Of a stretch of DNA of 64,000 bases, positions 1 through 35,504 are shown piece after piece; the first letter of the stretch is position 1, and each line of letters starts with the position of its first letter. The notes under the pieces were generated by a model that saw nothing but the letters and a program-made list of their open reading frames with translations, searched no databases and was not told where the DNA came from. Source of the DNA: Chrysophaeum taylorii. Its lineage: Eukaryota; Sar; Pelagophyceae; Pelagomonadales; Pelagomonadaceae. Location: assembly GCA_029834535.1 (NCBI GenBank), contig JAQMWT010000440.1, forward strand, positions 1 through 64,000, read 5' to 3'. Position numbers and translations under genes: made by a program.

Positions 1-40
1 TCAGTTGCGGCCGGCATGGTAGTTTTAACACGACAACGGT

Positions 41-718
41 GTGTGTCCTGTGCCGGACAGTCCCTCGAGGAAGAGGCGTGCTGCTCAGACGTTAACGAAT
101 GCGGGTTTCCAGCAACGCCAGAGGGACAGGAGCAATACCGACGGACGCTTTGCTGCAGCAGGACAGGCTTCAGTGACTCAGCTGGCGCCGCGCGTTGTGC
201 AACAGCCGCAGGTGGTCTACAGCAGCACAGGTGCCAGGTGCAGGTCAACAGCAGCTGGTTGCAGGCACTCAGCACAGCGTTTGGTTGCAGGCTCTCAACA
301 ACAGGTGGTCCGAAGGCAGCCCGCAGTGCAGCGGACCGCTCAGACCTCGGTGCGCCTGGAGGATCTGACTACGGCTCTCAACACGATGAACTTGATTCGT
401 CAGGCACAGCAGACGGCTCCGCCGGGTAGAGGGCGACAGTCTCAGAGAGCGAACCCTAGCCAGCACAATGATGGTGTCGCCGCTCAGTGGCTTGAAGTGC
501 TTGGCGAAGATCAGGATGACACTAAGCGAGCGGACTACTGCACTGTGCAGTATTCTGAGCTCATGGAGGGCAACGTGTATAACGATGACGATGTTGGGGG
601 CGATGATGATAGCTTCTCTGCAGAAGGCTATTCCCCTGGTGACCCCATGGAACCTCCTTCCTTTTGGTCATCACTGAAGATGCATGGGTGGAGGAGCAGG
701 AGCAAAGTACCGAAGTGA
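41..718 (+). pseudogene. Gag-like region of Gypsy copy A
   Basis: An open 225-aa frame rich in Q, R, S and A, ending in an acidic D-rich stretch. I see no CCHC knuckle. The assignment to Gag rests on position, upstream of the protease-like and RT regions and downstream of where the 5' LTR should be. Copy B has a different, more N-terminal gag piece (coiled coil), so the two copies probably preserve different parts of gag. Coding continues in another frame from about 664, which implies a frameshift. Confidence 0.4.
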
Positions 719-1592
719 CTGGAGTTGCATCTAGAGTTCTCTCGGAAGACGAAGATAATCGTGACGAATTGGGGTATACGATTGTTCGTGTGGGACAAGA
801 TACCGTGGTTGCCATGGATATAGTGCCACCGAGGGACGACTGTGCCGAGCGTTATGCCGCTCACCCTTCCATCTCTTCGGATTTCGAGAGTTTCTGCCCT
901 CAGACTGCGTTGAATACCACTCAGGATCCCGACCATCGTGAAAATAAAGCCGTAAGGTACGATGGCACGAGATCCGCCTCTTTGACGTATGTGCCTGTGG
1001 CTATCTCTTCGCTAGATGGTTCGAAATATTCCATCATCGCTGCCGGTTTGGATGGCATGGCTGATTCCCCCTACATCGATCACCGCTTGTATCGCAAACT
1101 TGATCGTGACGGCAAAATCATCTATCGTCAGCCACTCCCTACGATTCGTACTCTAAATGGATCAGGAGGTTCGGGAGCTGCTATTCGAGAATGGGTCATT
1201 CTCGGATCTCCTTGGTGCCGACGACATCCATGCTGCTCATGTTCTTCGTTGGTCAAACGAATGGGCAGTTACTATTAGGAGCACGAGAATTACGACTCTT
1301 GGGTACGATTTTGGATTATGCGACAGAGAGAGCTATTTTTCGGCGTTCTGAAGTGACCATTGGAGTTCTCAAGAATCGGACTTCCGCCTCGCCACAAGAC
1401 CAGCATGGAATTGTCCTTTACAATGATGCATTCGATGCGACTCCGCAGGTAGTGCAGATGTTCCCGACAGCTAAGCTTGCTGTGCAATACGGAAATATCA
1501 AACTTGGACGCCAGTTGGTAAACCGTGGAGTTATGACAGTCTATTGCGTTCTATTCGTATCAGAGCGAATCACCATCACATTCCTCCGGTGA
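664..1592 (+). pseudogene. Retropepsin-like protease region of Gypsy copy A
   Basis: Two overlapping frames (664-1278 and 1191-1592) look like one protein split by a frameshift. Around 1040-1110 the translation reads YSIIAAGLDGMADSPYID. This resembles the retroviral aspartic protease active site (hydrophobic, then D-S/T-G-A, then a fold-closing segment), but the usual DSGA or DTGA is changed to DGMA. The downstream LLGARELRLLGTILDY is compatible with the following strands. The position between gag and RT supports the call. The enzyme is probably inactive in this copy. Confidence 0.45.
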
Positions 1593-1668
1593 TCAGACTG
1601 CTGGAAAAGCGGAAGACCAACTTGAATGCCCTGCAGACGAGGAAGATATCATCCCTCATTTCGCGTAC

Positions 1669-2109
1669 GTGACGAGTACTCGATTTCTTCTTCAAACCAA
1701 CCGTACTTCTTGGAGATGGAGTGCGATGTGCCGCTGGAAAGAGTCACGTATTCCGACCTTATCGGTCACTCCTCAAGATCTCCGCCTTGTACCTGGTTCC
1801 TATTCATCGTATTGTGCTGATGAGCCCAACGAAGTTCATGTGGCTGTGGAGCACATTGGTGACGAACCCATTGGTATCGACCCCGAAGTCCCGGTGGTCG
1901 AAGGCGAGATCATGCCGCATGAAGGATGTGTCAACATGCAGCTAGAAGCCACTGATGACGTGTGTCATGCCACTCTTACGGCTGCTGTTGACGACGATGA
2001 AGTCGAGGAGGATGTCTTGAGTGACAGACCTCCTCCTCAGCCACCTCCAGATGAAGTGAAAAAAACACCAGAAATGGAGATGGAGGCGACTGTTAAGGCT
2101 GCTATCTAA
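1669..2109 (+). CDS. Acidic, proline-rich linker of Gypsy polyprotein
   Basis: This 146-aa frame lies between the protease-like and DNMT regions. Its C-terminal half is strongly acidic and contains a PPP-rich stretch (DRPPPQPPPDEVKK). The same segment, from GEIMPHE onward, is present in copy B at about 35270-35470, where it joins directly to an N-terminal gag piece. It is probably a linker in the polyprotein and has no recognisable domain. The frame runs to about 2109, and the DNMT frame follows within about 10 bases. Confidence 0.4.
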   Translation: MTSTRFLLQTNRTSWRWSAMCRWKESRIPTLSVTPQDLRLVPGSYSSYCADEPNEVHVAVEHIGDEPIGIDPEVPVVEGEIMPHEGCVNMQLEATDDVCHATLTAAVDDDEVEEDVLSDRPPPQPPPDEVKKTPEMEMEATVKAAI

Positions 2110-2119
2110 GCACGCCTCC

Positions 2120-3087
2120 TTGGTTTGGATACCCATCACCTACACCTTTGTCGTCGTCTACTTTGCTGGCGCTGGAGGATCAACGTTGGGTATCCGGCGA
2201 TGCAATGAGCTATATGGCAGTTCATTTCGCATTGTCCTGGCTTTGGATGCTTGTCCTCAAGCCCGAGCCACCTTTGAGCTCAATTTTCCGAAGATTCCCT
2301 ATGTTTTGCATGAGTTGGGGAAATCTCATCGTCGTACATACGACTTGGTGTTGTCGTATTTACACTCAACTTTTGGAAGCATTCTTATTTTCACGCAAAT
2401 CCGCCGTGTATCTATGGGTCGACTGCCAATTTGCACTACAGGGACGCACGCAAGGGCGCTACGATTACTTCTTGGGTCCTGCGTCATTTCCGCAACGCAC
2501 CTTATGTTGGACGATGGACGCTCGAGCAGGAACCATCAGTGATCCCTTTTGTGCATCACCAATTTTATGTGCCGCGTATTGTTGATTTCTATAGTATCAC
2601 GCCAGAGCTGCTGTGCTCGCGCACGCGCCTACTTGCGTGCAATGTTCGCTTGAACTGCCGTTATTATCGCGTGTACCACCGAATTTACGGGACCGTTTTG
2701 GCCCAGCGTTGGGATTTACAAGTGGTCACCCGCTCATTATAGTGAACAGTTTCTCATCTACGCGCCCGGCTATCGGCCCTACCTTCACGGTGACGCGCAA
2801 TAAGCTCCGCTTAGGACCTCATTTCTCGAACACCCGCCCACTCACGTTGCAGATGCACCAGGAAATTATGACCGTTCCTGCTACGTGGCAATGGAGTGCG
2901 ACAGTTTCAGACAGTAGCTATGAAGATGCTTGGCAGTATGGTGCCACCCGCGACTATGACGCGGATTGCGCTAGCAGTGCACAATTCGTTTGACCCTTCA
3001 CTTCGAAATTTGGGTAAGTTGCGGAATATTGCGACGACTACGCCCAACCTGATCACCATATTCTCCGGTTTTCACCTTTTGCTGTAG
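2120..3087 (+). pseudogene. 5-cytosine DNA methyltransferase domain in Gypsy copy A
   Basis: The order of motifs matches C5-DNA methyltransferases. Motif I (SAM binding) reads YFAGAGGSTLGI from 2159. Motif II has an acidic residue in VLALDACPQA (Asp at 2246), followed by an NFPK segment. Motif IV reads HANPPC, with the catalytic Cys codon at 2407-2409. A motif VI-like WTLEQEPSV lies near 2518-2544; the usual ENV is changed. A motif VIII-like CSRTRLLAC lies near 2614-2640. Motif X reads MLGSMVPPATM near 2926-2958, matching the family's GNAVPP. Motifs I-II are in one frame and IV-X in another, so there is a frameshift near 2350-2380, plus a stop at 2740-2742. It lies between protease and RT, where plain Gypsy elements have no such domain. 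It is damaged here but was clearly a full catalytic domain in an ancestor. Confidence 0.85.
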
Positions 3088-3125
3088 AGTCGCGCATTCC
3101 AACGATCGACCCTGCCACTCGAAGT

Positions 3126-4935
3126 GTGTCATGGATTTCGCCTGATGAACTCTATTCTCCCGCGAGTCCTGCACCATCAGCTGCTGCCACCACCACCCCG
3201 CCACCACCTTCAGTTACGTCGCCTGGGACGGCTTCATCTTTGCAGGGGGCACCGTCGCCACTGCTGTTATGCAGAGCAACCAAGTTGACAACCAGCCCTC
3301 CGCAACTGCTGAAGAAGAAGGCACCGCGAAAGAGCGACCAGCGTATTTCAATAAGTACGTTCCGTGGGCGGACGCGCCTCGACGAACATGGTCAACCTTC
3401 ACCGGTGATGCCTCCTCATTTAGCGGATCAGGAGCATGCAGGTCATCCCTCCGACCGTCGCGCAGGTCGAAGAGGTGATGACTGAATTGGGTATTACAGA
3501 GCATCCTGCTTTAGATGATGACGAGAAGCTGATGATGAAGCATTTAATCTCGTATTCGTGGGCATTTTTCGATGATGTGATGAGACCTGTTGATTCACCT
3601 GAAGTGACGCTCCGGTTCAAAGAAGAGAACCCGACCCCCGTCAAACTCTCGCCATATCGGTTGTCGAAAGAAAAGATTGAATGTTTGCGGATGCAGATTG
3701 AAGCATGGACCCGAGACGGAGTTATTCATCCTGCGAATTCTCCATGGGGTTTCCCTATTTTGATGTTGCCTAAGAGAGGTGCCGAGCCTGGCACTTCCAA
3801 TGCTTACAGAGCAGCTGTCGACCTACGGCGCCTCAATGCATTGCTCAAGGATGATAGCTGGCCGAGTGTGAGCATGGTTGACGCGCTGATGTTTCTCGTC
3901 GACAAGTTTTGTCGTTCCAGTTTGGATATTCGTTGGGGCTATCACAATTATTTGCGATTGTCGCTAGATGCACGAGATGTGGTAACCTTCACTAGTCCTC
4001 TGGGAGCGTACAGCTACATGCGTCTAGCTTTGGGAGTCAAACCAGCCGGAAGTTTGTTTTGCAAGCAGTTGAACACTGACTTGTAGAAATGGCTATATTG
4101 TGATCTCGTGGCATATATCGACGATATTCTCGCCGGTCACGCAGATACAAAGAATCACATGCAGTGCCTTGTGCAAGTTATTCCCCATCTCGCCTTGAAG
4201 GGGTACAGCGCCAAGATCAAGAAGATTCATTTTATGCAAGAAGTCATTGAGTTTGTGGGTCATTTATCTACCCCGAACGGACTTCTTCCATCACCAAGGT
4301 CTTTAGAAGCCATCAGACACATGCCAATTCCTGGCACTTTGTCGGATGCTGACCCTAAGAAGCAAGTGCGATCTTTCCTTGGAATGGGGAGATTTTGCCG
4401 GCGTTATGTAAGGAATTTTGCGAAAGTTGCAGAGCCATTAAGACAACTGACGTTGCCGGACGTGAAATTCAAGTGGACGAAAGAGTGTCAGGAAGCTTGG
4501 GATGCCATCATCGAGGCTATTGTCACTTCGAAGGGCGTCTATCATCCTGATTACTCATTACCTTTTTACATTCGAACTGATGCTTCCGCGCATGGGTTGG
4601 GTGCTTACCTATTTCAAAAAGTACCAGTCGTTGACGACGATGGAAGAGAAAGAATCGAAGAGAGAGTTATCGAGTACTGGAGTCGAACCGTGCCTTAGTC
4701 GATGAGGAAGTATGATCCTCGGCGCTTGGAACTCCTCGCAGTACTCTCTGCTCTCGAAAATTTCCGATTTTATATCGAAGGTCATCAGACGAAGTTAGAG
4801 ACGGATCATCATAATTTAACGTTTCTGCGGGATTCGAATCATACGCCTGGACAGTTAGCACGATGGGCTATGCGGCTTGCTGCGTTCGACCGGGAGCTCG
4901 GATACAAGCCTGAAAGCTCCCCTGGAGAAAGATGA
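3126..4935 (+). pseudogene. Reverse transcriptase and RNase H of Gypsy copy A
   Basis: A proline-rich linker (3126 to about 3430) leads into a Ty3/Gypsy RT read in one frame from 3436 to 4935. Visible parts are the fingers segment (KLSPYRLSKE), PANSPWGFPILMLPK, DLRRLNALL, the SSLDIRWGYH block, the catalytic YIDD at 4114-4125, the SFLGMGRFCRRYV thumb/connection, and RNase H blocks TDASAHGLGAYL and YDPRRLELLAVL. Two in-frame TAG codons occur. The one at 4084-4086 replaces a Ser codon that copy B keeps. The one at 4696-4698 is shared with copy B. The frame ends at TGA just after the RNase H region, where the integrase core has been deleted. Confidence 0.92.
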
Positions 4936-5875
4936 ACGGCGTCAGCCAGACTGGTCGAATTTCCTCCCATATGTGTCATTCATGTACAATAGGATGTACA
5001 TTCCGGGAACGAAGATTTCACCTTTCATGATGCGTACTGGCAAGCAACCCCTGTTGCCACCTGATTACAATCTTTTGAGTGAACAGCGTGATCTACCGCA
5101 ATCACGTCATCAGATTTTGGTGGAATTTAAGAACAAGTTTGAATTTTATAGTCGACTCGTTACACGAGCTCATCAGAAAGCACAGGAGAGTCAAAATCTC
5201 AACTATGATGCCCACCAAATTGACATCCAGTTTTCCCCAGGTGATTATGTTCTGCGTTTCGTGCCTAAGACACGCCACAAGCTACGGCCCATTTGGCGCG
5301 GACCTTACATGGTTACTAGAAAGATCTTTCCCGTCGTTTATGAAATTCAAGACGTCAACGACGATGATGCTGAATCGGTTGTAGTATCTGTACAACAGAT
5401 TGTGCCTTTGAAAGTGCCAACCATCGACACTTCTTCAGCCCCTCTGCATTTACCCTCGGACCGCGACCGGTTCAAACATGGTAAGTTCGTGATTTTCAGG
5501 GTGAGAGGACGATCCAACGCGTGGAAGAAGCGTCTCTATGTTACCGAAGTCTACGAAGAATATGACCACGACAATGATACAGTTGCTCTTCACTACTATA
5601 CCGATTTGGGACCGCGCGATGATCCTCGCGTCTTTGATCCTACTAAGCCTCTGGCTGAGCGACGCTTTAGACCAGAATACAAAGATCCTGACGGAGGTAG
5701 CTTCACACGCCTACGACCAAACATGGAGGGCTGTGAACCCTGTGTGACTGATTTCCACCCGGATGAAATCGATGTCCTCGTCACTAACTTCGGTCTCCAC
5801 AGCAACAAAGTTCCTGCTGATGTAGCTGAGCGAGCTTATCGTACCATTCGTGAGCGTGACCTTCGTCACCCTTGA
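4936..5875 (+). CDS. Integrase C-terminal domain with SH3-like tail, Gypsy copy A
   Basis: This open frame (nominally from 4877) starts in the last helix of the integrase core (WSNFLPYVSFMYN, PFMMRTGKQPLLP). It runs through a GPY/F-type motif (RPIWRGPYMVTRK) that marks the integrase C-terminus of many Gypsy elements. A further 170 residues follow. Part of this extension (FVIFRVRGRSNAWKKRLYV and the strand-rich run after it) looks like a small beta-barrel module of chromo, BAH or Tudor type; that is an inference from pattern only. The zinc finger and D,D,E core seen in copy B are absent. The stop is at 5873-5875, followed by about 130 bp of noncoding sequence before the polypurine tract. Confidence 0.8.
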
Positions 5876-5999
5876 AGTCGAGGACGACTTCATCTCAAGT
5901 AGGGGGCTCCACCTGTGGCAGTAACGCCCATTTCCCCCACTTGCCTGCCTGCCACCTGACTTTCCCTGATTGTTGCCCTGGTATTGACCTTGCATTTAT

Positions 6000-6006
6000 G
6001 GGGGGG
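6000..6006 (+). other. Polypurine tract of Gypsy copy A
   Basis: A run of seven G directly precedes the TGTC that begins the proposed LTR. Copy B has the same G7 run at 40716-40722. A purine run at this place is the plus-strand primer expected for an LTR retrotransposon, and it fixes the left LTR boundary. Confidence 0.6.
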
Positions 6007-6243
6007 TGTCATCTCGACACCTTCACCTGCGCTTCCACTGGACCCAATGTACCGGGCATTTGTATTACTTTCTTGATGTCTTCTTGATATTACCCTCTTT
6101 TGATTGTCCGATTTCGTGATGGCGTGAGGTATTACGCTGAGATCGGGCGTGTGGTGGTTTCTCCCGCGGTTCGGGTTGGGAGGAAGGGCTGTTGAGGCCC
6201 CCGGTCCGGCCGGGAGGGGCGGGTATCTGAGAAAACCACTACA
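6007..6243 (+). repeat. 3' LTR of Gypsy copy A
   Basis: The sequence starts TGTC after the G7 tract and ends CCACTACA. Its right two-thirds (TTACGCTGAGATCGGGCGTG, then GCGGTTCGGGTTGGGAG and GAGGGGCGGGTATCT) matches both LTR copies of element B at 34127-34266 and 40836-40962. Length is about 237 bp. The 5' partner is outside the window, so the target-site duplication cannot be checked. Confidence 0.75.
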
Positions 6244-6379
6244 CCCCCTCTTAGCAGTCGACCTTCAAAGACATACATAAATAATCGGAGGCAAAGAGGT
6301 CATTGATTAGTGCCTGGTGTCGTCATATACTGAAAAGTACTCAAAACGGACGCCGAAACGGACATTATTGTTAGTACGA

Positions 6380-6717
6380 ATACAAAATTTCGGGATGTTT
6401 GTGCGCTAGATGACGTACGGGAGGTCGCTCGCCAAGGCACTCCGGAAATGCGACATCCCCTTCAACTCGTGGCACGACCTTGCACAAGACCGCGCGCAGT
6501 GGCGGTCCGCCATCAACGCCTTTTCCTCCCTCGCCTCTACCCCAGCTGTGTGATTTTGCTCTGTGATCCTGGACCGGCGACTGCCGGCCCAGCCTGGCTC
6601 CCATGCCCGGGAGAGGTCCGAAGTTAGTTAGTTAGTTAATCGCTTTCGCGATTTTTTTTTTTTTTTTTGTCCGGCCCACAATTTTTGTCCGGGTGCGGCC
6701 AGTTGTTTAGAATTTTG
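6380..6717 (+). mobile_element. 5'-truncated LINE insertion with 14-bp target-site duplication
   Basis: The segment is flanked by an exact 14-bp direct repeat, TATTGTTAGTACGA, at 6366-6379 and 6718-6731. Inside are the last 48 codons of a LINE protein (6410-6553), a short 3' UTR ending GAGAGGTCCGAAG, a (TTAG)n tail at 6624-6638, a TCGCTTTCGCGA hairpin, an 18-bp T run and about 60 further bases. The 3' UTR and tail recur at 32099, 39847, 41193 and 48153. Matching protein sequence is found in the long LINE at 62367-62455. Confidence 0.8.
6410..6553 (+). pseudogene. C-terminal fragment of LINE reverse transcriptase protein
   Basis: This 47-residue frame begins MTYGRSLAKALRKCDIP and continues into a WHDLAQDRAQWR block. 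The family resemblance is to the conserved end of LINE ORF2-type proteins (G-R-P-x-x-T, then LAxDRxxWR). It is better preserved here than in the long LINE at 62367, where the same block carries small indels. It ends at a natural TGA. As a 5'-truncated copy it encodes no enzyme. Confidence 0.75.
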
Positions 6718-6738
6718 TATTGTTAGTACGAGGTATAT

Positions 6739-6947
6739 GTCTGTCTTTAAATGTCGACTGCTAAGAGGGGGGTGTATATGTCTGTCTTTAAATGTCGACT
6801 GCTAAGAGGGGGGTGTGTGTGGGGAGCATGAAGGATGTGGGTGGGTTTGTGGGGTATGAGGGATGTGCCTGACGGGCGGAGATAAGTACGTGGGACCTAG
6901 TCGGGGTCATCGCCGAGGCGTGGGGCAGGCGAAGAGAGGACGGGCCC
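6739..6947 (-). repeat. R1 repeat, full copy plus 43-bp tandem duplication of its end
   Basis: Bases 6790-6947 are the near-exact reverse complement of the 156-bp insertion at 25415-25570. The end sequence, TCTTTAAATGTCGACTGC plus TAAGAGGGGGG, is repeated in tandem at 6745-6790. Further partial copies occur at 6241-6275, 7338-7390, 7655-7745 and 41520-41596. It has no coding capacity. It behaves like a short nonautonomous mobile element. Confidence 0.7.
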
Positions 6948-7337
6948 CGCCCGTAGGTCGTACGCATGCTGCCGCCGGACGTATGTGCGACGAAGGGCTG
7001 CGGCAGGAAAGGATTATGCGCGCCGACTTCTTACCCTGCTTCGACGGTGCCCTCGACGTCTCGAGGGTGCCGAGCGGGTTGAGGAGCGCTTCCTTCCTGT
7101 CGATCAACCTTCAAACTGTCCACGAGCTTCGCTCCGAAGACTCGTGAAATGATTTATGGTTGAGATTAGTCGATTTGAAGAAGGGGAACGCCTGGTGGCG
7201 TTGTAATACGTGCGTTAGGGGTTGAAGTAGAGTCCAGTAAAAAGTCCAGTAGACGGGAAGTGGGGTAGAGAACTCGATAGAACTAAGGGGTAAGGATGGC
7301 GGTGTGAGGGTTACCGCCACAAGGGTGACGTCCTGGG
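6948..7337. other. Spacer, nothing recognised
   Basis: About 390 bp between R1 copies. Short frames on both strands show no domain, and I see no repeat copy elsewhere in the window. Confidence 0.5.
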
Positions 7338-7399
7338 TGTATATGTCTGTCTTTAAATGTCGACTGTTAAGAGGGGGGGGGTGTGGGTGTATATGTCTG

Positions 7400-7640
7400 G
7401 GTGGCGCTAGCCACAACACAAACGCTAACCCTGCGATCGCTAACCGTTGGTTGCGATGGAGGACGGCGCCTAACGCTTGCTCCCTGCGGCGGCCCCTGCC
7501 GTCCCGGAGTGAGACAGTGCCTGCTCGCCTCCCGGGCTGGCCGGTTAGCACCCGGAAAGTCCGCGCTGGGATTTGGTTCGCTCGGTTGGGCAGAACGCGA
7601 CGGACAGGTCGATTGTTCGTGGACCAACACGTCCCGGCGG
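7400..7640 (+). repeat. SINE-like unit related to the 39481 and 32099 insertions
   Basis: The segment contains GTTGCGATGGAGGACGGCGCC, CTCGCCTCCCGGGCTGGCC and TCGATTGTTCGTGGACCAAC. The first two blocks match the unit inserted at 39481-39847 in the same order. The last block, with its upstream CGGTTGGGCAGAACGCGAC, matches the reverse strand of 32270-32390. It lacks the (TTAG)n tail and abuts an R1 end, so it appears to be truncated or chimeric. Confidence 0.55.
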
Positions 7641-7654
7641 TCGACTGCTAAGAG

Positions 7655-7745
7655 GGGGTGAGTGTGTGGTGCACGAAGGATGTGGGTGGTTTTGTGGGGT
7701 AGGTCGACTCTCTTTAAATGTCGACTGCTAAGAGGGGGGTGTGTG
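7655..7745 (-). repeat. R1 repeat, partial copy
   Basis: It contains the AAGGATGTGGGTGG and CTTTAAATGTCGACTGC blocks of R1 in minus orientation, with the interior rearranged. It directly precedes the Copia-like coding region. Confidence 0.6.
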
Positions 7746-8469
7746 TAGGGCCACAAAGCATAAGACCGAAGACTTACGCAGTCTGCTGGACGATTCTCTT
7801 TTCGATAGTATGCTGTCTGTCATCAAGCTACTCCAACCCCTGGTACTACTGGCTAAGATGACACCCCCGCACAAGTACTGTCATCAAGACCACATAACTG
7901 TGGCCAATCTCATCCATACTACACTCGATTACTGTGTCGATGTTGTTGATAGGTTCCCGAGCTACCTCTGTGGCGGCTACCAACCTAGAGAAAGATGGAT
8001 ATGCATCGCACACAGGTATCCTACTGGACCAAATAACATATTGTCATGGCCTATCCTCCATCCACGCCCCTTCCTAAAGATCGTGGATGACTTACAAGCC
8101 ATTCCTAAGCGACTTTGGCTACCCAAACACATCGCCAAAGATTGGACCCGGGTGTTCCCCGATTCTCCATATGTGCCCGTTCCTAAAACGTTCGCACCTT
8201 ACTCTCGCACAGGCTCTGTTCAGCTTACTATGGCTGACCTTGAAACACTCAATATGTTATTATTGCGCCTTCACTCACAACAGGCTCACATCAACGTACT
8301 CACTCTGTTCAATCCGAGTGTACTTATCATCAGCTGTGCTTCAAACGCTCCTCCATGGAGCCGCTGCCTCATGCAACTAATTCTATACACGTCAAGGCTT
8401 TTACAATCCTCTATAACGTGTTTGCCAGATTGCACACTAACTCACCCACTCCTGTGTCCTATTACATAA
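7741..8469 (+). pseudogene. N-terminal Gag-like region of Copia-like element 1
   Basis: A 242-aa frame without a recognised domain, overlapping the following long frame by about 115 bp in another register. Composition and base use match the downstream integrase-RT frame, so it is probably the start of the same polyprotein, separated by a frameshift near 8355-8460. I cannot identify a Gag signature. The first codons come from R1 repeat sequence, so the true start is unknown. Confidence 0.35.
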
Positions 8470-11400
8470 CCGTTTTCGAAACTGACCAACCGTCACATAG
8501 GTTACTACTTACAACCTCATCAACATCACACAATACCCACTTCTTAACGGGTGGCCACCACACTGACGGCAACCTCACCATAGAAAACTCCGCCACCAAA
8601 TATCATGCTTCCATTGACGCGTTTGGAAGCATGTATACGTTTACTGCCTCCAAAGTCCCCCGCGACAGAGACAGATCTGTATATTTGGAGCCGTTTATGG
8701 GTTACTTGTGGATAGTCCAAGCCCTTCCTCAAGTTGGCTCCGCTGCCACCTATGGCACCGCCATACAAAAGCTCTTGTCCAGATGCTCTCTTGTGATGCC
8801 TGGCTGCCTTACCTACAAGGCCATCGACAACTCTTTCGACTACAAGGATTCTCATTTTGCTCTGGAAGATCACCACTTATCTCATAGTCGCTATATAGGG
8901 CACCTTCGTGGAAGTGACCGCAAACTCGGCTCTAAAATCCACTCCATGCTTGCTCCATTGCCCACCGTCCGAGGGTATGCCAACATTATTTTACTCGACC
9001 CTCGCAACGGGAAATTACGCTACCCCACTCGACCGGAGTTGATTCGTGCTAACAACCACACCAAACAACAGGAATCTTTCCTCTTGTCTCTTCGCCACGA
9101 CCTTTGCTGCGACATGCTCAGCAATGCTCTGCCTGCCGGTACGTACAGTACACTGTACAAGCACCTTTCGCTCCTCGTTGCCGATATTAAATCCCTTATG
9201 TTGGACCCTACCTTCCAACATACTGCTGCCGTGACGAAGAAATCCTATGTATCCAACTTTATGACCTTTGATCAGGCCTCCACCACGTGCAGCACAGATA
9301 CCTTGTCTTTGGCACAAGCTTTTATGATGTCTATTTCCAGCAACTGCTTGACCGAAATGTCGTTAAACTATATATCTTCGTCCTACGAAGATACTCTCGC
9401 TACTCGTGATGATGAGGATGCACCTCCAAGTGACCCTGCTGCGCACCAGGATGACGACGCACCGCCCCCCCCTGCCTTGGACACCGAACTCAAGTTCGAT
9501 GTTCGGCGCAAACGTCATATTCCCGCTCATCCCATTCCTCGCAAGTCCTTCGCACACGGATCTACCGAATATCTCAACGCCAAAGAACGTGCCAATCGCT
9601 TCCACCGGGTGCACCACTGCCCCGACAACGTCGCTGCCAAGGCCCCCAACGTACTGGCTCGCCCTGGCTTCTCTGCCTCTGACATACCGTATCGCGACTT
9701 ATGCACCGACTGCATCGCACACAACAAGCGCCACCCGCACAAGCACTTCAATCCGACCAAGCCCTCTTTTGAGCAAACTCACAAAGCCGGCGAAGTCTGG
9801 GCGTGCGACGGCGGCTATGTGACCATCCCATCCGAATGGGGAGGCTTCACACATATTATCGTCTTCAAGGAACTCATTTCGAAATTTCTCTTGGTGTACT
9901 TTACACGCACCACCAACGCCACGGAGTTCACTCAAGCTCTGGACTTTGTGTATGACTTTTGTCGTACACAACTCAACGTGCACATGCGCACCCTCTTCTC
10001 TGATGCCTTCAAACCCTATTTTAGCCAGCACATTACCTCCCCGTACCGCGTCGATAAGGGCATTCAACTCATCGCCTTCCCGCCGTACATGCACCACTTT
10101 AACTTTGAAGTTGAGTCTGCCATCGGTTTCATCGCCTCCGCCTCCTCAACTCGCCTTCGTTCTCTCCTTAATGCTCATTATCGTGGCTCAAAGATCGTGG
10201 AACCAGCCATCATGTTTCCCTGGGCGGTAATACACACCATACAAAGCTACAACCTCCTTCCGAACGCCACGCTCGAGCGCATTCACCATGCTATCCTGAG
10301 TCCGCAACAGCTACTCTACAACCAACTAAGCACTCCCCAGCATGACATGCTCAAGATCTTCGGCGCTGAATGCTACCTTCTATTGGAGCCCCACGAGCAC
10401 CACAAGTGGGAACCGTGCCGCCGCAAATACTTATATCTATGTTGCGCCAACGCGCAAAACCCGCTCGTCTCCCCACGCGTTGACCATATCGCCGACGTCG
10501 TCCTCAACCCTGAAAACGGACAAATTCGTGTTTCGTCCAAGCTGCAATTCCTCTACATGCTCCAGCATCCTACTCCTGATCCTGAACTTGCTCCTCCGCC
10601 TCACGCTCCTCCCGCGCCTTTCTCGCTCACACCCCACGCCGCTATCCAAGACCATGTCATTCAGAGGGGGACACGGACTCCTCATCCTCAGAGGGGGCAC
10701 TCTCCACCTCCTTCAGCTCCTTCTTCGTCCCCTGCTCCTGCCTCTTCTCCCTCTTCTGACGCTCTCGCCGACGATTCTGGCTCTATGCCACCGCCGCCCT
10801 TGCTTCCTTCTTACAAAGACCTTTTTGCACAAGATGACCTCATTCTTGTCCCAGGTTCCAAACAACCTAACACCCGCAAGGCAACCTCCATGAAAAATAT
10901 CCAAGCCCGGCTGCAAGCGTCTACTATTGGTGCTTACAAAGCCGCTGGTGGCAAACTCGCCGATTTCCGCTGGGATCTTCGCCACCACTTTCTTACGTTC
11001 AAGTCTCCCGCCCTCTCCGCCCTTCATATCAATGGTGGTATCCTCTGGTCTGCTATCTGCTCAGAGGGGGAACATGCGTTGTTAGCTCGTCTTCTTCTCC
11101 CGTTGCGCACTGACTTACTTGCCCGCTACCCGCACGTCGATGGTTACTTCGCCCACGCCAAGTGCGCATCCAGCATCCCAGCTGCAACCTTTCTAACTGC
11201 TGATGGTTCACCTACGTGCCCCATTCCTCAGCCCCTTTTAGCTGCGTTCACTGAGCACGCTGCTGCCTTTGGCATTTCTTCCTTACAATATGCACTTACG
11301 TATCTGGCGCCGACCAGCTTATCGATCACAACTCCTCCGAGTTTGGCGCTAATTCTGCATCTCTGGCTGACTTGGAGGAATACCTTCTGGTCTCTACAGA

Positions 11401-11531
11401 GTATATCACCCAGGTCTTACATGCCGACCCTACTATCCATATCCAACTGGAATCTGCCCCTACTACTCCTCCCGACGCTGTTTCCGCTTATCCCGAAGTT
11501 GCGCACACTGCCTCGACCGCAACGTCGCTAA
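8355..11531 (+). CDS. Copia-like polyprotein part 1: Gag-like region and DD35E integrase
   Basis: A 1058-aa open frame. Residues 1 to about 400 are unassigned (Gag-like by position). Residues 410-470 hold His and Cys residues (HRVHHC, later CTDC) compatible with an HHCC finger. The integrase core follows: Asp485 in WACDGGYV, Asp550 in LFSDAF, and Glu585 in NFEVE, exactly 35 residues after the second Asp. The segment to about 700 (LFGAECYLLLE-like, YLYLCCANAQ) fits the Copia integrase C-terminal side. A low-complexity P/S/A linker (about 735-820) precedes a region leading to RT. I see no clear protease motif. Reading switches by a frameshift near 11290 to the RT frame. Confidence 0.75.
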   Translation: MEPLPHATNSIHVKAFTILYNVFARLHTNSPTPVSYYITVFETDQPSHRLLLTTSSTSHNTHFLTGGHHTDGNLTIENSATKYHASIDAFGSMYTFTASKVPRDRDRSVYLEPFMGYLWIVQALPQVGSAATYGTAIQKLLSRCSLVMPGCLTYKAIDNSFDYKDSHFALEDHHLSHSRYIGHLRGSDRKLGSKIHSMLAPLPTVRGYANIILLDPRNGKLRYPTRPELIRANNHTKQQESFLLSLRHDLCCDMLSNALPAGTYSTLYKHLSLLVADIKSLMLDPTFQHTAAVTKKSYVSNFMTFDQASTTCSTDTLSLAQAFMMSISSNCLTEMSLNYISSSYEDTLATRDDEDAPPSDPAAHQDDDAPPPPALDTELKFDVRRKRHIPAHPIPRKSFAHGSTEYLNAKERANRFHRVHHCPDNVAAKAPNVLARPGFSASDIPYRDLCTDCIAHNKRHPHKHFNPTKPSFEQTHKAGEVWACDGGYVTIPSEWGGFTHIIVFKELISKFLLVYFTRTTNATEFTQALDFVYDFCRTQLNVHMRTLFSDAFKPYFSQHITSPYRVDKGIQLIAFPPYMHHFNFEVESAIGFIASASSTRLRSLLNAHYRGSKIVEPAIMFPWAVIHTIQSYNLLPNATLERIHHAILSPQQLLYNQLSTPQHDMLKIFGAECYLLLEPHEHHKWEPCRRKYLYLCCANAQNPLVSPRVDHIADVVLNPENGQIRVSSKLQFLYMLQHPTPDPELAPPPHAPPAPFSLTPHAAIQDHVIQRGTRTPHPQRGHSPPPSAPSSSPAPASSPSSDALADDSGSMPPPPLLPSYKDLFAQDDLILVPGSKQPNTRKATSMKNIQARLQASTIGAYKAAGGKLADFRWDLRHHFLTFKSPALSALHINGGILWSAICSEGEHALLARLLLPLRTDLLARYPHVDGYFAHAKCASSIPAATFLTADGSPTCPIPQPLLAAFTEHAAAFGISSLQYALTYLAPTSLSITTPPSLALILHLWLTWRNTFWSLQSISPRSYMPTLLSISNWNLPLLLLPTLFPLIPKLRTLPRPQRR

Positions 11532-13129
11532 ACTGTAATTCACCAGCCACTGTTGGTCCTGACGAATATAAGGTCCAAGAAGCGGACGTTTCCATTGACG
11601 AATATAAACTTAAGTGTCTCCACGGTTTGTCGCCTGAAAACAGGCACGCCTACCTCAAGGCCATCGCCAAGGAACTCCACGACATTATCCGCTTTGGCTG
11701 CTTCAAACTTTCCTTACCCGACGGTGTCTCTCGTCCTATTGACAGCAAGATGGTGCTGAAGATTAAGACAGACTCTGCAGGCAAATACGTTAAGCACAAG
11801 GCTCGCCTCGTGCTACGTGGCTTCCTAGCATCTCTTGGCGCCGATTTCTTTGGTACCTTCAGCCCCATGGCCACAATAACCGCAATCCGGGTACTACTGG
11901 CTATTGCAGCATACAAGCAATTGCCTGTCTACCATGCAGACGTCCCGAACGCCTTCGTTCAGTCTGACATTGACGCCAATGTCTATGTTCAGTTACCAGA
12001 CGGCATCAAGCTTATCGACCCCGATGACGCTAAGTACAAGGGCCGACGTCTACCGAAACTGCTGAAGTCACTTTATGGACTTCGGCAATCACCATCCCTT
12101 TGGAACAAAGAGATAGACGGCTTCTTCCGTAGCCTTGCTTACAAACGCCTGCATTCGGACTCTTGCCTATACGCTCGAGTATCCGCACATGCTAAGTTCG
12201 TCGTATGCAGTCTGTCTGTAGACGACATTGTTATTGTGTCCAATGACGACCCTCTTCGTACTGAATTACAGGATGCCCTCCACAAACGGTATGCTGTAGA
12301 GCAGTTTGAACCTGTCCATACCCTCCTAGGCATGCGCGTGTGTCGCACATCAGGTGGATCCATTTCTCTGGATGTGCAAGCCAAGCTGGATGAACTCTTC
12401 GCTGATCACCCAGTCTTGCAGCAACTGACCCCGCTTAAATATCCTATGTCATCGTCCTTCAAGTATAAAGATGGCACTCCCAGCACTGAAACAGAGTTGT
12501 ACATCAATTCGCACTTTGCCACCCTCCTTGGCAAGCTGGTGTTCATGCAAGTTGCCTGCAGACCTGACTTCTCGCAAGCCTTGGGCAGATGTTCGCGTGG
12601 TATGCATGCACCCACGTATGTTCACGTCCAAATGCTAGAGCATTTGCTTCGCTACCTCAAGAAGCCGGAAAACCGCTCACTTCGCCTCTGGTTCCATCCT
12701 AAAGGTAATGCCATTGAAGCTCACCTTCGCACTGTCTCCGCTAATCGAATTGATCTATCCACTGTGGTCGACTACCAACCGCAGGATGTATCTACTGGAC
12801 AGTTTGATCCCTTAGTTGCCATGGTTGACGCTGACAATGCCCCTCCCTTAGCACAGGAAGATAGGAAATCTACCACCGGGTTTGTCTTCTATCTTTTCAA
12901 CTGCCTTATTGGTTGGAAAAGCAAGGTTCAACCGATTGTCTCCTGCTCAGCTCACGAAGCTGAGTTGATTGCCCTCAGTATTTGTGCTGATGAAGCTGTT
13001 TGGTTTCTACGCAAACTGCTATTGGAACTCTCCTTTGTCGTCAACCCCACCTTCTACGTCAACAATGTTAATGGTGAGAACACCGCTGATCCTGTTGATT
13101 TCGATGACAATGACAACCCAATTGCTTAA
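11372..13129 (+). CDS. Copia-like polyprotein part 2: reverse transcriptase and RNase H
   Basis: A 585-aa frame with a Ty1/Copia RT (RVT_2 type). Visible blocks are KTDSAGKYVKHKARLVLRG, ADFFGTFSPMATI, YHADVPNAFVQSDI, LLKSLYGLRQSPSLWNKE and LSVDDIVIVSND, with Asp284-Asp285 catalytic; the usual YVDD is SVDD. RNase H follows with the DRKSTTGF block and CSAHEAELIAL. The frame is entered by a shift near 11290 from the integrase frame. It stops at TAA 13127-13129 inside the RNase H domain, and clear RNase H sequence continues in the same frame after the stop. Confidence 0.9.
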   Translation: MEEYLLVSTEYITQVLHADPTIHIQLESAPTTPPDAVSAYPEVAHTASTATSLNCNSPATVGPDEYKVQEADVSIDEYKLKCLHGLSPENRHAYLKAIAKELHDIIRFGCFKLSLPDGVSRPIDSKMVLKIKTDSAGKYVKHKARLVLRGFLASLGADFFGTFSPMATITAIRVLLAIAAYKQLPVYHADVPNAFVQSDIDANVYVQLPDGIKLIDPDDAKYKGRRLPKLLKSLYGLRQSPSLWNKEIDGFFRSLAYKRLHSDSCLYARVSAHAKFVVCSLSVDDIVIVSNDDPLRTELQDALHKRYAVEQFEPVHTLLGMRVCRTSGGSISLDVQAKLDELFADHPVLQQLTPLKYPMSSSFKYKDGTPSTETELYINSHFATLLGKLVFMQVACRPDFSQALGRCSRGMHAPTYVHVQMLEHLLRYLKKPENRSLRLWFHPKGNAIEAHLRTVSANRIDLSTVVDYQPQDVSTGQFDPLVAMVDADNAPPLAQEDRKSTTGFVFYLFNCLIGWKSKVQPIVSCSAHEAELIALSICADEAVWFLRKLLLELSFVVNPTFYVNNVNGENTADPVDFDDNDNPIA

Positions 13130-17124: not shown

Positions 17125-19182
17125 CTATGGGCATGACTCTCTGGAAATTAAACGTCGACGACCGCACAGCGGACACTTCTTTGTCGAGCGGCTTTCTTCC
17201 CTAACCAACAAAACCTGAAAATCATCATCCAGTCCGCAAGATAATTCCAAGATGAGGTCGTCGAGAGGAGGTCGGGTAGCGGCGAGCAGCCGGGAAACGA
17301 CGGCGTGATGGCCGCGGTCGCGCGCCGCGTCGATCGGCGTCATGCCGTACGAATCCACGCGGCGGGCGTCGGCACCGTACGCAAGCAATAACCGAGCGAC
17401 GTCGACGCACCCTTCGTAGCAAGCGAAATGAAGCGGCGAGAGGTCATAACACGCGGCCTGATTGACGTCAGCGCCGTGTTTCAGCAAGAGTCGGACGACC
17501 GAAAAGCAGCGAGTAAAGCTCGCGAGACAAAGCGGCGACATACCAGCGTTGTCGGTCAAATTGACGTCGGCGCCGGTTGTCTCCTCGAGCAACAACCGCA
17601 CCACTTCGACGTGGCCGTTTCGGCTGGCAAAGTGAAGAGACGAGGATCCGTCGTCGTCGTCCTTGGCGCGGTTCACGTCGGCACCGTTCGCGAGCAACAG
17701 ACGTACAACATCGACGTGGCCCTTCTCGCTCGCCACGCAGAGCGGCGAGGCACCTTTGCCCGCGGCTTGGTTGGCGTTAGCGCCGTGAGAAAGTAGCAAT
17801 CGGACGATGGCGACGAATCCGTTCTGGCTGGCCGCGCATAGCGGCGTGGCGCCGTCATTATCGGCGAGGTTGACATCGACGCTCGTTGTCTTCTTCTTCT
17901 TCTTCTCGAGAAGCAGCAGCAGGGCAACCACTTTGACTTGGCCGCGCTGGCTCGCAAGACACAGCGCCGAGGCACCACTGTTGTCGGTCAAATTGGCGTC
18001 GGCGCCTGCTGTCTCGAGCAACAAGCGCACCACTTCGACGTGGCCGTGCAGGCCCGCGAGGTGAAGAGACGAGGCTCCGTCGTCGTCCTTGGCGTGGTTG
18101 ACGTCGGCACCGTTCGCGAGCAACAATCGAACCACATCGACGTGGCCCTTCTCGCTCGCCATGCAGAGCGGCGAGGCACCTTTGCCCGCGGCTTGGTTGG
18201 CGTTCGCGCCGTGAGAAAGCAGCAATCGGACGACGGCGACGAATCCGTTCTGGCTGGCCGCGCATAGCGGCGTGGAACCGTCGTTATCGGCGAGGTTGAC
18301 ATCGACGCTCGTTGTCTTCTTCTTCTTCTCGAGAAGCAGGGCAACCACATCGACGAGGCCGGAACAGCTCGCAAGGTACAGCGACGAGCAACCGTAATCG
18401 TCGACCGCGTTGACGTCGGCGCCTTTCGAGAGCAGGAAACGTGCCACCTCGACGCGGTCGTCGTGGCACGCGATGAAGAGCGGCGAGGCACTACGGTTCG
18501 AGGTCTTTTCTAGGTCTGCGCCGTTCGCGACCAACAGACGTACCACGTCGAGGTGGCCCGCCGCGCTCGCCAGATAAAGCGACGAGCAACCGTTATCATC
18601 TTCCCCGTCGACGTCCGCGCCGTTCGCGAGCAGCAGAGTAACCACGTCGACGTGGCCGCGCTGGCACGCGATGCAGAGCGCCGGGGGGACTCGGCGACAG
18701 GCCTGGTTGACGTCCGCGCCGTTCGCGAGCAGCAGGGTAACCACCTCGACGTCTCCGTTACCACACGAGACATAGAGCGCCGACATCCCGTCTTCGTTGG
18801 CCTGGTTCGCGTCAGCGCCTCGCGAAAGCAGCAAAGTCGACACGGCGACGTCTCCGTTACTACACGAGACGCACAGCGGCGAAAAACCGTCTTCGTCGGC
18901 CTGGTTGACGTCCGCGCCCTTCGAGAGCAGCAGGGTAACCACCTCGACGTGGCCGTACAGACTCGCGGCGTACAAAGCCGACCAACCGTTCTTGGTTGTC
19001 TGGTTGACCTCAGCGCCTCGCGAGAGTAAGAGCCGGGCGACGCCGACGTGGCCGCCGAAGCTCGACTCCACGAGGGGCGAGTAACCGTTATCATCGACCT
19101 CATTCACGTCGGAATAACAAGAAGAATCGAGCTGCAATCGCACGGTGCCGATGTCACCATCATAGCACGCAGCCGCCAACAT
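17125..19182 (-). CDS. Ankyrin-repeat protein with C-terminal CPxC tail
   Basis: A single open frame of 685 aa made almost wholly of about 18 ankyrin repeats of about 33 residues (consensus G-x-S-P-L-x-x-A-x-x-x-G-H-V-x-V-V-R-L-L-L-x-x-G-A-D-V-N). Two internal units near residues 285-424 and 425-565 are near copies, each beginning with a lysine-rich insertion (EKKKKTTSVDVN). The last 50 residues leave the repeat pattern and end in KKCPLC (Cys670 and Cys673) with basic residues. Ankyrin repeats bind proteins; the partner is unknown. No signal peptide or membrane segment is seen. The same tail occurs at 33228 and 62613, and a degenerate form at 47076. The start at 19182 is the first Met and begins the first repeat. 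There is no sign of introns. Confidence 0.9.
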   Translation of the reverse strand: MLAAACYDGDIGTVRLQLDSSCYSDVNEVDDNGYSPLVESSFGGHVGVARLLLSRGAEVNQTTKNGWSALYAASLYGHVEVVTLLLSKGADVNQADEDGFSPLCVSCSNGDVAVSTLLLSRGADANQANEDGMSALYVSCGNGDVEVVTLLLANGADVNQACRRVPPALCIACQRGHVDVVTLLLANGADVDGEDDNGCSSLYLASAAGHLDVVRLLVANGADLEKTSNRSASPLFIACHDDRVEVARFLLSKGADVNAVDDYGCSSLYLASCSGLVDVVALLLEKKKKTTSVDVNLADNDGSTPLCAASQNGFVAVVRLLLSHGANANQAAGKGASPLCMASEKGHVDVVRLLLANGADVNHAKDDDGASSLHLAGLHGHVEVVRLLLETAGADANLTDNSGASALCLASQRGQVKVVALLLLLEKKKKKTTSVDVNLADNDGATPLCAASQNGFVAIVRLLLSHGANANQAAGKGASPLCVASEKGHVDVVRLLLANGADVNRAKDDDDGSSSLHFASRNGHVEVVRLLLEETTGADVNLTDNAGMSPLCLASFTRCFSVVRLLLKHGADVNQAACYDLSPLHFACYEGCVDVARLLLAYGADARRVDSYGMTPIDAARDRGHHAVVSRLLAATRPPLDDLILELSCGLDDDFQVLLVREESRSTKKCPLCGRRRLISRESCP

Positions 19183-19261
19183 GTGACGTACCGGACACCT
19201 ACGTACCCGATCGAAGACCTCCTCGAGGGTTTAGGTTTTCGATTTTTGACAACAAGTTAGT

Positions 19262-25570: not shown

Positions 25571-25746
25571 AAAGACTAACAAACAAACAAACATCTGTCG
25601 ATTAGTAGTTAGGACATTCCACGCCAGCTGCCGGCTCCACCACAAACATTCTCCCAAGTCACGCACGTTGCCTCCCTCAAAAGCGTCTTATCGCTCGGCA
25701 CGTCACTCCTCATTCTAGGACGCATGTCGCATGCCCGCACCTTCGA

Positions 25747-27825
25747 ATGCCCTACACGCCTATGGGCAACCCTGGTCACTACGGCACTCACTGCTCTGGT
25801 CCTCGCATCTCCGCCATTGAGGAGGATGCACCCAGGAGGACTGACCCTTTCATCGCCCTTGGTACTACTGCACTCTCCTTCGGCGATCCCCCCTTTCGAA
25901 TTCCCGCACTGGACCCCAAGCATTCCAGGCCGGATACCCCCCAGCACTTGATCTCAGCTCACGCGCCCATCTGTCCCACCTTGCAGACAGGTCAGCCGCG
26001 AGCCACACGTCTTTTGGCACTGACATCGGACCACCCGCATCACGCGCTTTTGCTCTTGGAGCATGACACGTTTTTCGATGCTCACCGCGTCACCACCTTT
26101 AACACCAAGACATTCGTCATTTCCACCGACGCTCCGCGCCGCAACGTATCTCACGACCTTCAGATCACCAACATAAGTCGCTCACGCCCGCACCACGTCG
26201 CGCACGCCTTACGAGGGCGTATTTCAATTGGTGACCTCACAGGTCTTTCGATGCATTTTCCGACGTCCGACTTTGAACTTACTAGTTACTTTATGGCAAT
26301 CGCCAACGCCAAGACGTCTGAAGCTGCGCAATCATGTCTCTGGAACTCCAAAGCCACAGAAACTGCCAGACAAGAGAGCACTCAGCTCTCAACAGCTGCT
26401 CAACAGCTACTTATAATCTCGCACATAGCAACGAGTACTATCTCGCAGTCTCTCTTGGGCGACAAGACGAAAAATAAGACCACTAAAGCTAGCTACACCA
26501 GTCAGCCCAATGATGTAGCAGACGAGACAATGCAAACCAACTGCACAGCACGGTTCCAGACTATGCAAACGATGCTCAGGTCCAACGCTCAATTGCTCGA
26601 CCACGCACACGTTCTGTCACCTGACCTTGCACTGCTACTGCCTCCTGTCTCATTCATAGCTGATGCACCCCATCCGATGGACCAGTCCTTAAGATATGTC
26701 CCGCTCGCAGAAGCACCACCGCAGGACACACAGGTACATCATGAAGATACAGGTAAACACACCACGATCACGCGCACATGCTCATTGCGCCTATCTGATC
26801 ACGATGAGACGAAGCTACAGCTTTGCTTGGTCCCTTCGCCTCTGGAAGACAAAGGCCGCCTTCCAGCCTCCCTGACACATGACCCGCCCCTGTCGCTGCA
26901 ATCCGCATTAGCACAGACGATCTCGCTTCCCTGCACGACAGCAGATCAGGCACAAGCAAATGTCGGTATTCTCCAGAGTTATGAGCACCCGCTGGAATCT
27001 TACCAGCACGGCTACCTCAGCCAGTCAGGTCACAGCACCACCTCGGTCTCCCCTGACATCAGGTCGACGTATCGTTCATTCGCGACCACCTCACGTCATC
27101 TATTGGACGACTATGATCTCGAGCATGAACTCATCGCAACGCTTGAGTCATACCCAAGAAGGAATCCTACTTTGGAGTCACCTCAGCCACTCCCACAGGA
27201 ACTTTGGCCACCAGACGCCACCCATGTGCTCGTGGTTTCTCCATTGCTATCCTCCAGAGCTTTTGACTGCGGCAGAGACAAAATGCAACCTTCCCATGCG
27301 ACTATACCCGCATTCTCGTTTGGGACACAAGCATTTACTTCATGTCAGATGTTTACGCTCATAGTACCGCCACACACGGCAACCAAGATCGAAGCGGACT
27401 GCGTTCCACCCTCATCTCTGAGCGCTACCCCCGACATGCTGCTGCTCCCGGCACTACTAGCCAGTCCCATCACGTCTGATTCAGCTCCCATCGCATTGTA
27501 TGACGACGTCATATGTCATATTCCGATTAAAGCCCAGACACCGCACAGGCTACAATGCACTCGCGACGGCACGCTCACCGCCCCTCTCGGTTTAGACTAC
27601 GAACATTGCGCCATACCCATGGTACACTCACAGTCAACTGAGACGCACGCTCGCTTGTCGCACAGTACGATGCCCAAACACCTTTTGATTCAGGATAAGC
27701 AGAACACTGTCGTCTCAGACACCGCTGACGCGCCTCCTCCGACCGCCGCCCGGCCCTGCGCTCGTTTCGCAACCACGGTCTCTCCGTCTCACCGGCAATT
27801 CGAAGATTCCACCCAGTTCGAATGA
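25747..27825 (+). CDS. Unassigned 692-aa open frame
   Basis: An uninterrupted 692-codon frame, rich in T, S, H, P and A, without repeats, Cys pairs, transmembrane runs or any enzyme motif I recognise. Its length without a stop argues for recent coding status. Codon use (many third-position C and A) resembles the Copia-like element at 8355-13129 more than the GC-rich host genes, so I think it belongs to a transposable element, perhaps a Gag. No RT, integrase or transposase is found next to it. The start is the first ATG after the R4 fragment; the real start could lie in 25614-25746. Confidence 0.5.
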   Translation: MPYTPMGNPGHYGTHCSGPRISAIEEDAPRRTDPFIALGTTALSFGDPPFRIPALDPKHSRPDTPQHLISAHAPICPTLQTGQPRATRLLALTSDHPHHALLLLEHDTFFDAHRVTTFNTKTFVISTDAPRRNVSHDLQITNISRSRPHHVAHALRGRISIGDLTGLSMHFPTSDFELTSYFMAIANAKTSEAAQSCLWNSKATETARQESTQLSTAAQQLLIISHIATSTISQSLLGDKTKNKTTKASYTSQPNDVADETMQTNCTARFQTMQTMLRSNAQLLDHAHVLSPDLALLLPPVSFIADAPHPMDQSLRYVPLAEAPPQDTQVHHEDTGKHTTITRTCSLRLSDHDETKLQLCLVPSPLEDKGRLPASLTHDPPLSLQSALAQTISLPCTTADQAQANVGILQSYEHPLESYQHGYLSQSGHSTTSVSPDIRSTYRSFATTSRHLLDDYDLEHELIATLESYPRRNPTLESPQPLPQELWPPDATHVLVVSPLLSSRAFDCGRDKMQPSHATIPAFSFGTQAFTSCQMFTLIVPPHTATKIEADCVPPSSLSATPDMLLLPALLASPITSDSAPIALYDDVICHIPIKAQTPHRLQCTRDGTLTAPLGLDYEHCAIPMVHSQSTETHARLSHSTMPKHLLIQDKQNTVVSDTADAPPPTAARPCARFATTVSPSHRQFEDSTQFE

Positions 27826-35474: not shown

Positions 35475-35504
35475 GGAGCTGCTATCTAAGCACGCCTCCT
35501 TGGT

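Follow-up and report, generated by a model that had tools for sequence, protein, structure and literature searches.

The question raised by this locus is whether a Ty3/gypsy retrotransposon of the alga Chrysophaeum taylorii carries a C5-cytosine DNA methyltransferase (DNMT) in its polyprotein and, if so, what such a domain would do. Capture of DNMTs by retrotransposons has been reported before, in dinoflagellates and a charophyte. Excerpts of de Mendoza et al. (2018; PMC5890265) describe DNMTs in a gypsy element of Klebsormidium nitens and, for Symbiodinium, in elements of the LINE and DIRS types, in agreement with a sequence-only reading of the present DNA, which had pointed to such captures in a few algal and protist groups. 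According to these excerpts, the SymbioDIRS DNMTs methylate CG in yeast and the results for KnitGypsy and SymbioLINE were inconclusive; self-methylation, evasion of foreign-DNA recognition and slowed retrotransposition are discussed as consequences. Furthermore, part of Sarre et al. (2025; PMC12344493) mentions DNMT3 in LTR Copia and DIRS elements, citing the 2018 paper, which says Gypsy, and part of Morozov et al. (2019; PMC6338049) mentions methylase-bearing Ty3/Gypsy and DIRS elements in Stramenopiles and other groups, with adenine and cytosine enzymes lumped together.

In this study, the window (the whole stretch of 64,000 nucleotides from contig JAQMWT010000440.1) was analyzed together with searches of the genome (70.8 Mb). 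The reading preferred here, to which we give a probability of roughly 0.7 on sequence evidence, is that a C5-DNMT domain was captured into the gag-pol of an algal Ty3/gypsy element and has been kept under purifying selection, and that it would most likely be translated and packed with the reverse transcriptase (RT), acting on element or target-site DNA.

Two element copies in the window

The window contains two copies of the element, with the following features.

1-6243, + strand: Ty3/gypsy LTR element, copy 1; 3' end present, 5' end cut by the contig start, integrase zinc finger and core missing
1026-1310, + strand: protease-like (retropepsin-like) stretch, placed by eye; AGLDGMADSPYID ... 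GARELRLLG in open copies
2120-3087, + strand: DNMT domain (C5-cytosine methyltransferase); frame broken by five short deletions
2162-2182, + strand: DNMT motif I, FAGAGGS (FAGAGG at 2162-2179); PF00145 model 7-46 at 16.7 bits
2398-2418, + strand: DNMT motif IV, NPPCIYG (PPC at 2401-2409, Cys codon at 2407-2409)
2515-2538, + strand: DNMT motif VI-like, WTLEQEPS; EQE where ENV is expected, placed by eye and spacing
2614-2634, + strand: DNMT motif VIII-like, CSRTRLL; by eye
2835-2864, + strand: DNMT motif IX, RPLTLQMHQE; PF00145 model 260-321 in open copies
2929-2970, + strand: DNMT motif X, LGSMVPPATMTRIA; PF00145 model 260-321 in open copies
3424-4698, + strand: RT and RNase H, in two frames; PF17919 in the frame 4087-4698
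4931-5875, + strand: C-terminal part of the integrase, core missing; PF22938 and PF24626, both under their cut-offs
5914-6243, + strand: 3' LTR of about 330 bp, TGTGGCAG...CACTACA; ends set by eye
34130-40962, + strand: second copy, degraded; 5' LTR remnant to 34266, 3' LTR at about 40624-40962
35582-36210, + strand: DNMT domain of copy 2, motifs IV to X; by sequence comparison with L062

Copy 1 is 97% identical to L062, a long stretch retrieved from elsewhere in the genome, over window positions 1-4925 and 4931-5521. Its 5' end is missing because the first base of the window is the first base of the contig, and the integrase zinc finger and core were lost through a deletion of L062 positions 7921-8967 at the window junction 4925/4931. 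Pfam scans of the window and of open copies gave no match for the protease-like stretch. Of the two frames that cover the RT and RNase H, that at 4087-4698 matches PF17919 (E 7e-14) and also PF00078, at 23.5 bits and under the cut-off of that family, and that at 3424-4086 is without a Pfam match; in the RT search of the genome, the window copy was matched at 3760-4290 of its contig (94%).

The sequence-only reading had placed motifs I, IV, VI-like, VIII-like and X of a cytosine methyltransferase in this order at 2120-3087, and they do occur there in order, scattered over three frames. Relative to L062, this copy has five short deletions and contains no intact DNMT gene; its longest frame reaches only 16.7 bits (E 0.005) with PF00145, for which the curated cut-off is 22. 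Motifs VI and VIII were placed by eye and spacing and not by profile. The VI-like assignment holds in that the glutamate is kept, the first Glu lying 40 residues past the Cys in the open copy L036; it departs from the expected motif in that the residues read EQE instead of ENV.

The domain in copy 2 had been said to share motifs IV to X at 35505-36210. These motifs are indeed present, at 35609-36186, and motifs I to III are deleted, L062 positions 5141 to 5354 being missing between window positions 35538 and 35581. Most of gag and the protease (L062 2276-4877) is also absent from copy 2, and foreign DNA is inserted at about 39491-39847. Compared with copy 1 by eye, copy 2 has several tandem duplications of 2-4 bases, such as a repeated gtc or gat.

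The domain in other copies of the family

If the domain belongs to the element, it is expected in further copies, and the sequence-only reading had made its case depend on this. A DNA search with window 2110-3200, in which 40 of 168 candidates were scored, gave at least 41 rows in the same genome, none of them below 94% identity; 39 of these rows, the window included, span nearly the full query, and one copy accounts for two rows. Among 30 DNA copies (window included), the domain is free of indels and stops in 16, has one stop in five and has indels in nine, and intact copies have open frames, as long as 1812 aa, that also hold the RT. A protein search with 310 aa of the DNMT gave at least 135 matches (128 of 896 candidates scored), which merge into 125 places; these include subfamilies at 79-85% identity, and two matches lie in open frames of more than 2100 aa. 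The refuting outcome named in the sequence-only reading, a segment missing from all other copies, is thereby contradicted. The contig pairs C25/C521, C10/C297 and C6/C268 have the same matches at nearly equal positions and are perhaps duplicate haplotype contigs, which would inflate the copy counts slightly.

The domain is linked to the RT of the family. A search with the RT gave at least 150 matches (150 of 875 candidates scored), 115 of them at 77% identity or more and 35 at 61-65%. For 84 of the 115 family RTs listed, a DNMT match lies on the same strand no more than 3 kb upstream, at a distance of 600-900 nt in 70 cases; the true share must be higher, because the 31 negatives include both window copies, which carry the domain. 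The RTs at 61-65% identity represent a sister Ty3/gypsy lineage in the same genome, in which none of the 35 listed RTs has a match to the DNMT query within 3 kb upstream, a search that a diverged domain would escape. Two members of this sister lineage (RT 61%), at C5:523104-523631 and C5:547165-547692, belong to open frames that are 3067 and 3063 aa long.

In open copies, the domain is a C5-DNMT by profile. PF00145 is matched above its cut-off of 22 bits in four open frames, namely L035 (33.8 bits, 1056 aa), L042 (32.7 bits, 1212 aa), L036 (30.4 bits, 1317 aa) and L060 (27.4 bits, 1077 aa). RVT_1 shares the open frame with PF00145 in L036, and in L060 it falls just under its cut-off; the claim that a Ty3/gypsy element encodes a DNMT between the protease-like region and the RT is supported. 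L062, which is a longer stretch of the same locus as L036, has a frame of 1812 aa containing a gag match (under the cut-off), the DNMT in two stretches (the best at 1223-1286) and RVT_1 at 1555-1718. A later, separate frame contains the integrase H2C2 domain PF17921 and rve PF00665 (28.3 bits, under the cut-off). The direct LTRs of L062, at 718-988 and 9633-9899, are 91% identical over 277 columns, and the 3' LTR reaches the end of the retrieved stretch.

In an alignment of 13 domain sequences, comprising 11 of the 16 intact copies of subfamily A and two sequences from another subfamily, PF00145 is the one family matched at E <= 0.01, and all 13 sequences match it (best E 7e-10), so that the profile comparison upholds the assignment that the window frame gives only below the cut-off. 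The two halves of L035 match the profile separately and collinearly; the first match covers model positions 7-77 (20.7 bits, E 3e-4), the second positions 260-321 (21.2 bits, E 2e-4). For L074, the N-terminal half is weak (13.7 bits, E 0.04) and the C-terminal half scores 21.8 bits. Single halves thus each fall below the cut-off, and the PF00145 profile gave no match for the middle of the domain or for motif VIII in open copies. With the NCBIfam dcm model, L036 scores 19.4 bits, far under the cut-off of about 101, and L074 has no match.

What motifs I, IV, VI and VIII generally do in C5 methyltransferases is established. Motif I, as FAG[AS]GG, and SPPC occur in all 11 sequences of subfamily A; the other two sequences start at GAGG and keep SPPC. 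The ENV of motif VI is absent, with EQE in 12 of the 13 aligned sequences and EHE in one, so that the Glu is kept throughout. Motifs IX-X are matched by the profile, and motif VIII (CSRTR) was recognized by eye. A profile built from the gypsy DNMT reached no solved structure in the PDB at E <= 1 and none of 6468 candidates in the protein database at E <= 10, so that no named DNMT was reached. No database match was found for the polyprotein regions of this family or of the copia family described below, among candidates limited to 0.55-1.75 times the query length, and the 116 and 57 pattern matches in viral contigs included no relative.

A Ty1/copia family and the host methyltransferases

A search of the genome with PF00145 itself gave at least 57 matches (123 of 474 candidates scored). 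Of the 30 that were retrieved, two are the host genes considered below, and 24 of the other 28 share motifs that mark a single repeat family, each in a frame of 250 aa or more. This family is Ty1/copia. Its representative L061 (G000:C96:60500-70400) has an open reading frame at 2597-8452, of 1952 aa, which contains PF00145 at residues 349-475, rve at 1016-1110 (17.2 bits, under the cut-off) and RVT_2 at 1686-1933. The copia DNMT (E 2.7e-9 against PF00145) sits between a protease-like region, identified by eye, and the integrase, which lies upstream of the RT. Its motifs are IAGGLH, LPCQHLS (PCQ), VENV (ENV) and SKTRY; the IX-X region was read by eye as RYATLNEIAKFG and ALANAVPHHML, without a Pfam match there in the two copies scanned. 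With this domain as the query, at least 119 matches were found in the genome (112 of 665 candidates scored). Ten pairs of five open copies gave dN/dS values of 0.119-0.178, four of the pairs over 394 codons only. In the PDB, the copia profile reached one row, a cytosine-specific methyltransferase at E 0.21.

Profile comparison gave no significant alignment between the gypsy and copia DNMT domains. As the gypsy profile is shallow (Neff 1.1), the undetected homology is no proof of separate origins.

Other parts of the window resemble the copia family. A diverged copia element lies at 8244-13129, with RVT_2 in 11255-13129; residues 213-724 of its frame 8244-11531 are 23% identical (E 3e-22) to the part of L061 that covers the C-terminal DNMT and the integrase, so that the copia DNMT may be old. 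At 25609-27825, a 738-aa open frame without a Pfam match aligns with the DNMT region of L061 at 25% over 209 aa (E 6e-9, in a two-sequence comparison). Another copia RT, on the minus strand at 41796-43631 (RVT_2, E 1e-33), is 31% identical to the RT of L061 over 205 aa.

Two host DNMT genes were recognized. The best PDB match of the DNMT2-like L001 is 1g55, an entry named DNMT2 (E 4e-39). The DNMT5-like L002 (G000:C621:15462-18998), with an open frame of 2086 aa, aligns with 7r76 along 640 aa (E 3e-143); the depositors name this entry DNA repair protein Rad8, and we take it to be the DNMT5 of Cryptococcus. No further host DNMT was recognized among the 30 retrieved PF00145 matches, a set that intron-split genes can escape. 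The gypsy DNMT has no close match with either host gene; in the profile comparison with host DNMT2, only motifs I to IV align, with a probability of 1% and an E value of 0.05. The Cys-to-Glu spacing is 40 in the gypsy and copia DNMTs and 41 in host DNMT2 and DNMT5.

Selection, alternatives and known relatives

The gypsy DNMT has evolved under purifying selection. Between subfamily A (L062) and subfamily B (C225), dS is 1.33 and dN is 0.112, giving a dN/dS of 0.084 over 309 codons; across four blocks of the domain, the ratio ranges from 0.028, the lowest value, in codons 71-120 with motif IV, to 0.112. For the RT of the same pair it is 0.035 (236 codons), roughly half the DNMT ratio. Within subfamily A, the mean pN/pS is 0.27 for 210 pairs of 21 copies, five of which have a stop. 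The pair C225 and C384, within subfamily B/C, differs by four synonymous and 12 nonsynonymous changes (dN/dS about 1). Of 109 motif columns, 14 differ between subfamilies A and B, compared with 43 of 200 columns elsewhere, so that the motif columns taken together are not significantly slower (p 0.067); the blocks of motifs IV and VI have changed in none of their 27 residues.

CpG observed/expected is about 1.0 in the gypsy and copia elements, compared with values from 1.25 to 1.46 in three stretches elsewhere in the genome. Among 30 copies, 108 of 321 CpG sites are variable, compared with 122 of 462 C and 124 of 429 G outside CpG, so that CpG is only slightly more variable. The element would appear from its base composition and variation to carry little sign of methylation, the CpG signature being weak.

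The polyprotein order is gag, protease-like region, DNMT, RT, RNase H and integrase, the last in a separate frame in L062. Since the DNMT adjoins the RT in Pol, it would be made together with the RT, packed into the same particle and brought into contact with new cDNA; its predicted target is newly made element DNA or the DNA of the integration site. In the predicted chemistry, the Cys of PPC would be the nucleophile, FAGAGG would bind the methyl donor and the Glu of EQE would take the role of that in ENV. The replacement of ENV by EQE may change the kinetics or the substrate. The sequence data establish the identity of the domain by profile, its position in the polyprotein, its copy number and the selection on it; catalysis, packaging, substrate and a benefit to the element are inferred.

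The most serious alternative is that the domain derives from a DNMT and has lost catalysis, being retained in the polyprotein to bind DNA or RNA or to serve a structural role. The EQE motif, the middle of the domain without a profile match and a dN/dS above that of the RT would all suit such a history; however, subfamilies A and B do not differ in the blocks of motifs IV and VI, the lowest dN/dS falls on the motif IV block and the Cys-Glu spacing has been maintained, and we consider this alternative unlikely. It is also conceivable, though rather improbable, that a catalytic domain methylates RNA, such as the element RNA or a primer tRNA, and not DNA. DNMT2 acts on tRNA. In excerpts of PMC5890265, the SymbioLINE DNMT was inactive on yeast DNA, a result called inconclusive by the authors, and an RNA role was proposed; the gypsy DNMT, however, lacks a close affinity with host DNMT2.

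A chance resemblance of an ordinary connector between protease and RT would account for the low scores of single copies (27-34 bits) and for the lack of any match in the PDB or the protein database. It is very improbable in view of the match to PF00145 alone in all 13 aligned copies, the two separate collinear profile matches, and six motifs in order with the Cys-Glu spacing. That a retroelement has broken into a DNMT gene of the host, or that the assembly is chimaeric at this locus, was considered for the frame-broken window copy and found no support: the domain occurs at 125 merged places, a single open frame holds a weak gag match and the RT, and host DNMT2 and DNMT5 are not close. This reading is ruled out by the copy number and the open frames.

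The preferred reading, a captured and selected DNMT acting on element or target-site DNA, can be compared with known systems. Gypsy capture being already known in K. nitens from the excerpts of PMC5890265, the Chrysophaeum family is a further case, as had been suggested. According to the same excerpts, KnitGypsy-Dnmt3 resembles the present family in being a gypsy element with the DNMT within the Pol polyprotein and the key residues kept, and in purifying selection (Ka/Ks < 0.2, compared with 0.084 here). It is assigned there to Dnmt3 and has a DIRS-like repeat arrangement according to a figure legend, whereas direct terminal repeats only were found here, in the one long stretch examined (L062); the present family also differs in the EQE of motif VI, in its fucoxanthin-type algal host and in the copia family with its own DNMT alongside. 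Symbiodinium, as described in these excerpts, likewise has multicopy retrotransposon DNMTs and two DNMT-bearing element classes in one genome, which are DIRS and LINE elements there and LTR Ty3/gypsy and Ty1/copia elements here. Methyltransferases of unrelated enzyme classes are also carried by mobile elements, namely the Dam-like adenine methylase of DIRS elements (parts of PMC5890265 and PMC6338049) and the ParB-like plus N4/N6 methyltransferase of an Ectocarpus Sola element (part of PMC12477816). No published report of a copia DNMT was found in a literature search of limited depth; nevertheless, owing to the statements in the excerpts of Sarre et al. (PMC12344493) and Morozov et al. (PMC6338049), neither the copia DNMT nor the stramenopile case can be called the first. 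The gypsy DNMT is a real, selected and multicopy domain of a known rare type, and differs from earlier cases in its host, its active-site motif and the accompanying copia DNMT.

The different DNMT that Ty1/copia elements of this genome have past their protease-like region points to a recurrent advantage of capture rather than a single accident. As both LTR superfamilies occur together and their DNMTs are under purifying selection, the association is suggested to be recurrent and useful to LTR elements. Fungal DNMT5 is a maintenance enzyme. For a host in which DNMT5 but so far no DNMT1 or DNMT3 has been found, it becomes a testable question whether selfish elements are a source of de novo methylation. 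A bolder proposal, which we regard as doubtful, is that gypsy and copia elements independently captured different DNMTs into the same post-protease slot, that both enzymes work, that the gypsy enzyme represents a new EQE class methylating cDNA or an RNA:DNA hybrid, and that the elements could supply de novo methylation which the host DNMT5 maintains.

The host genome also has 84 chlorophyll a/b-binding matches, many in tandem, and only two Zn-cluster matches, which rules out the fungal host that the DNMT5 match had suggested. For one of two light-harvesting proteins compared with the PDB, the closest chains are the fucoxanthin chlorophyll a/c proteins 7vd6 (262 bits) and 6ly5 (253 bits), presumably diatom entries, with only 120 bits for 8z11, presumably a haptophyte entry; the affinity of the other protein is ambiguous. 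These data are read as those of a fucoxanthin-type alga and probable stramenopile. Light-harvesting gene clusters with equal or nearly equal scores occur on contigs C88, C539, C390 and C533 of the same assembly (G000). In the window itself, long ankyrin-repeat open frames lie at 17125-19230 and 62613-63959 (minus strand).
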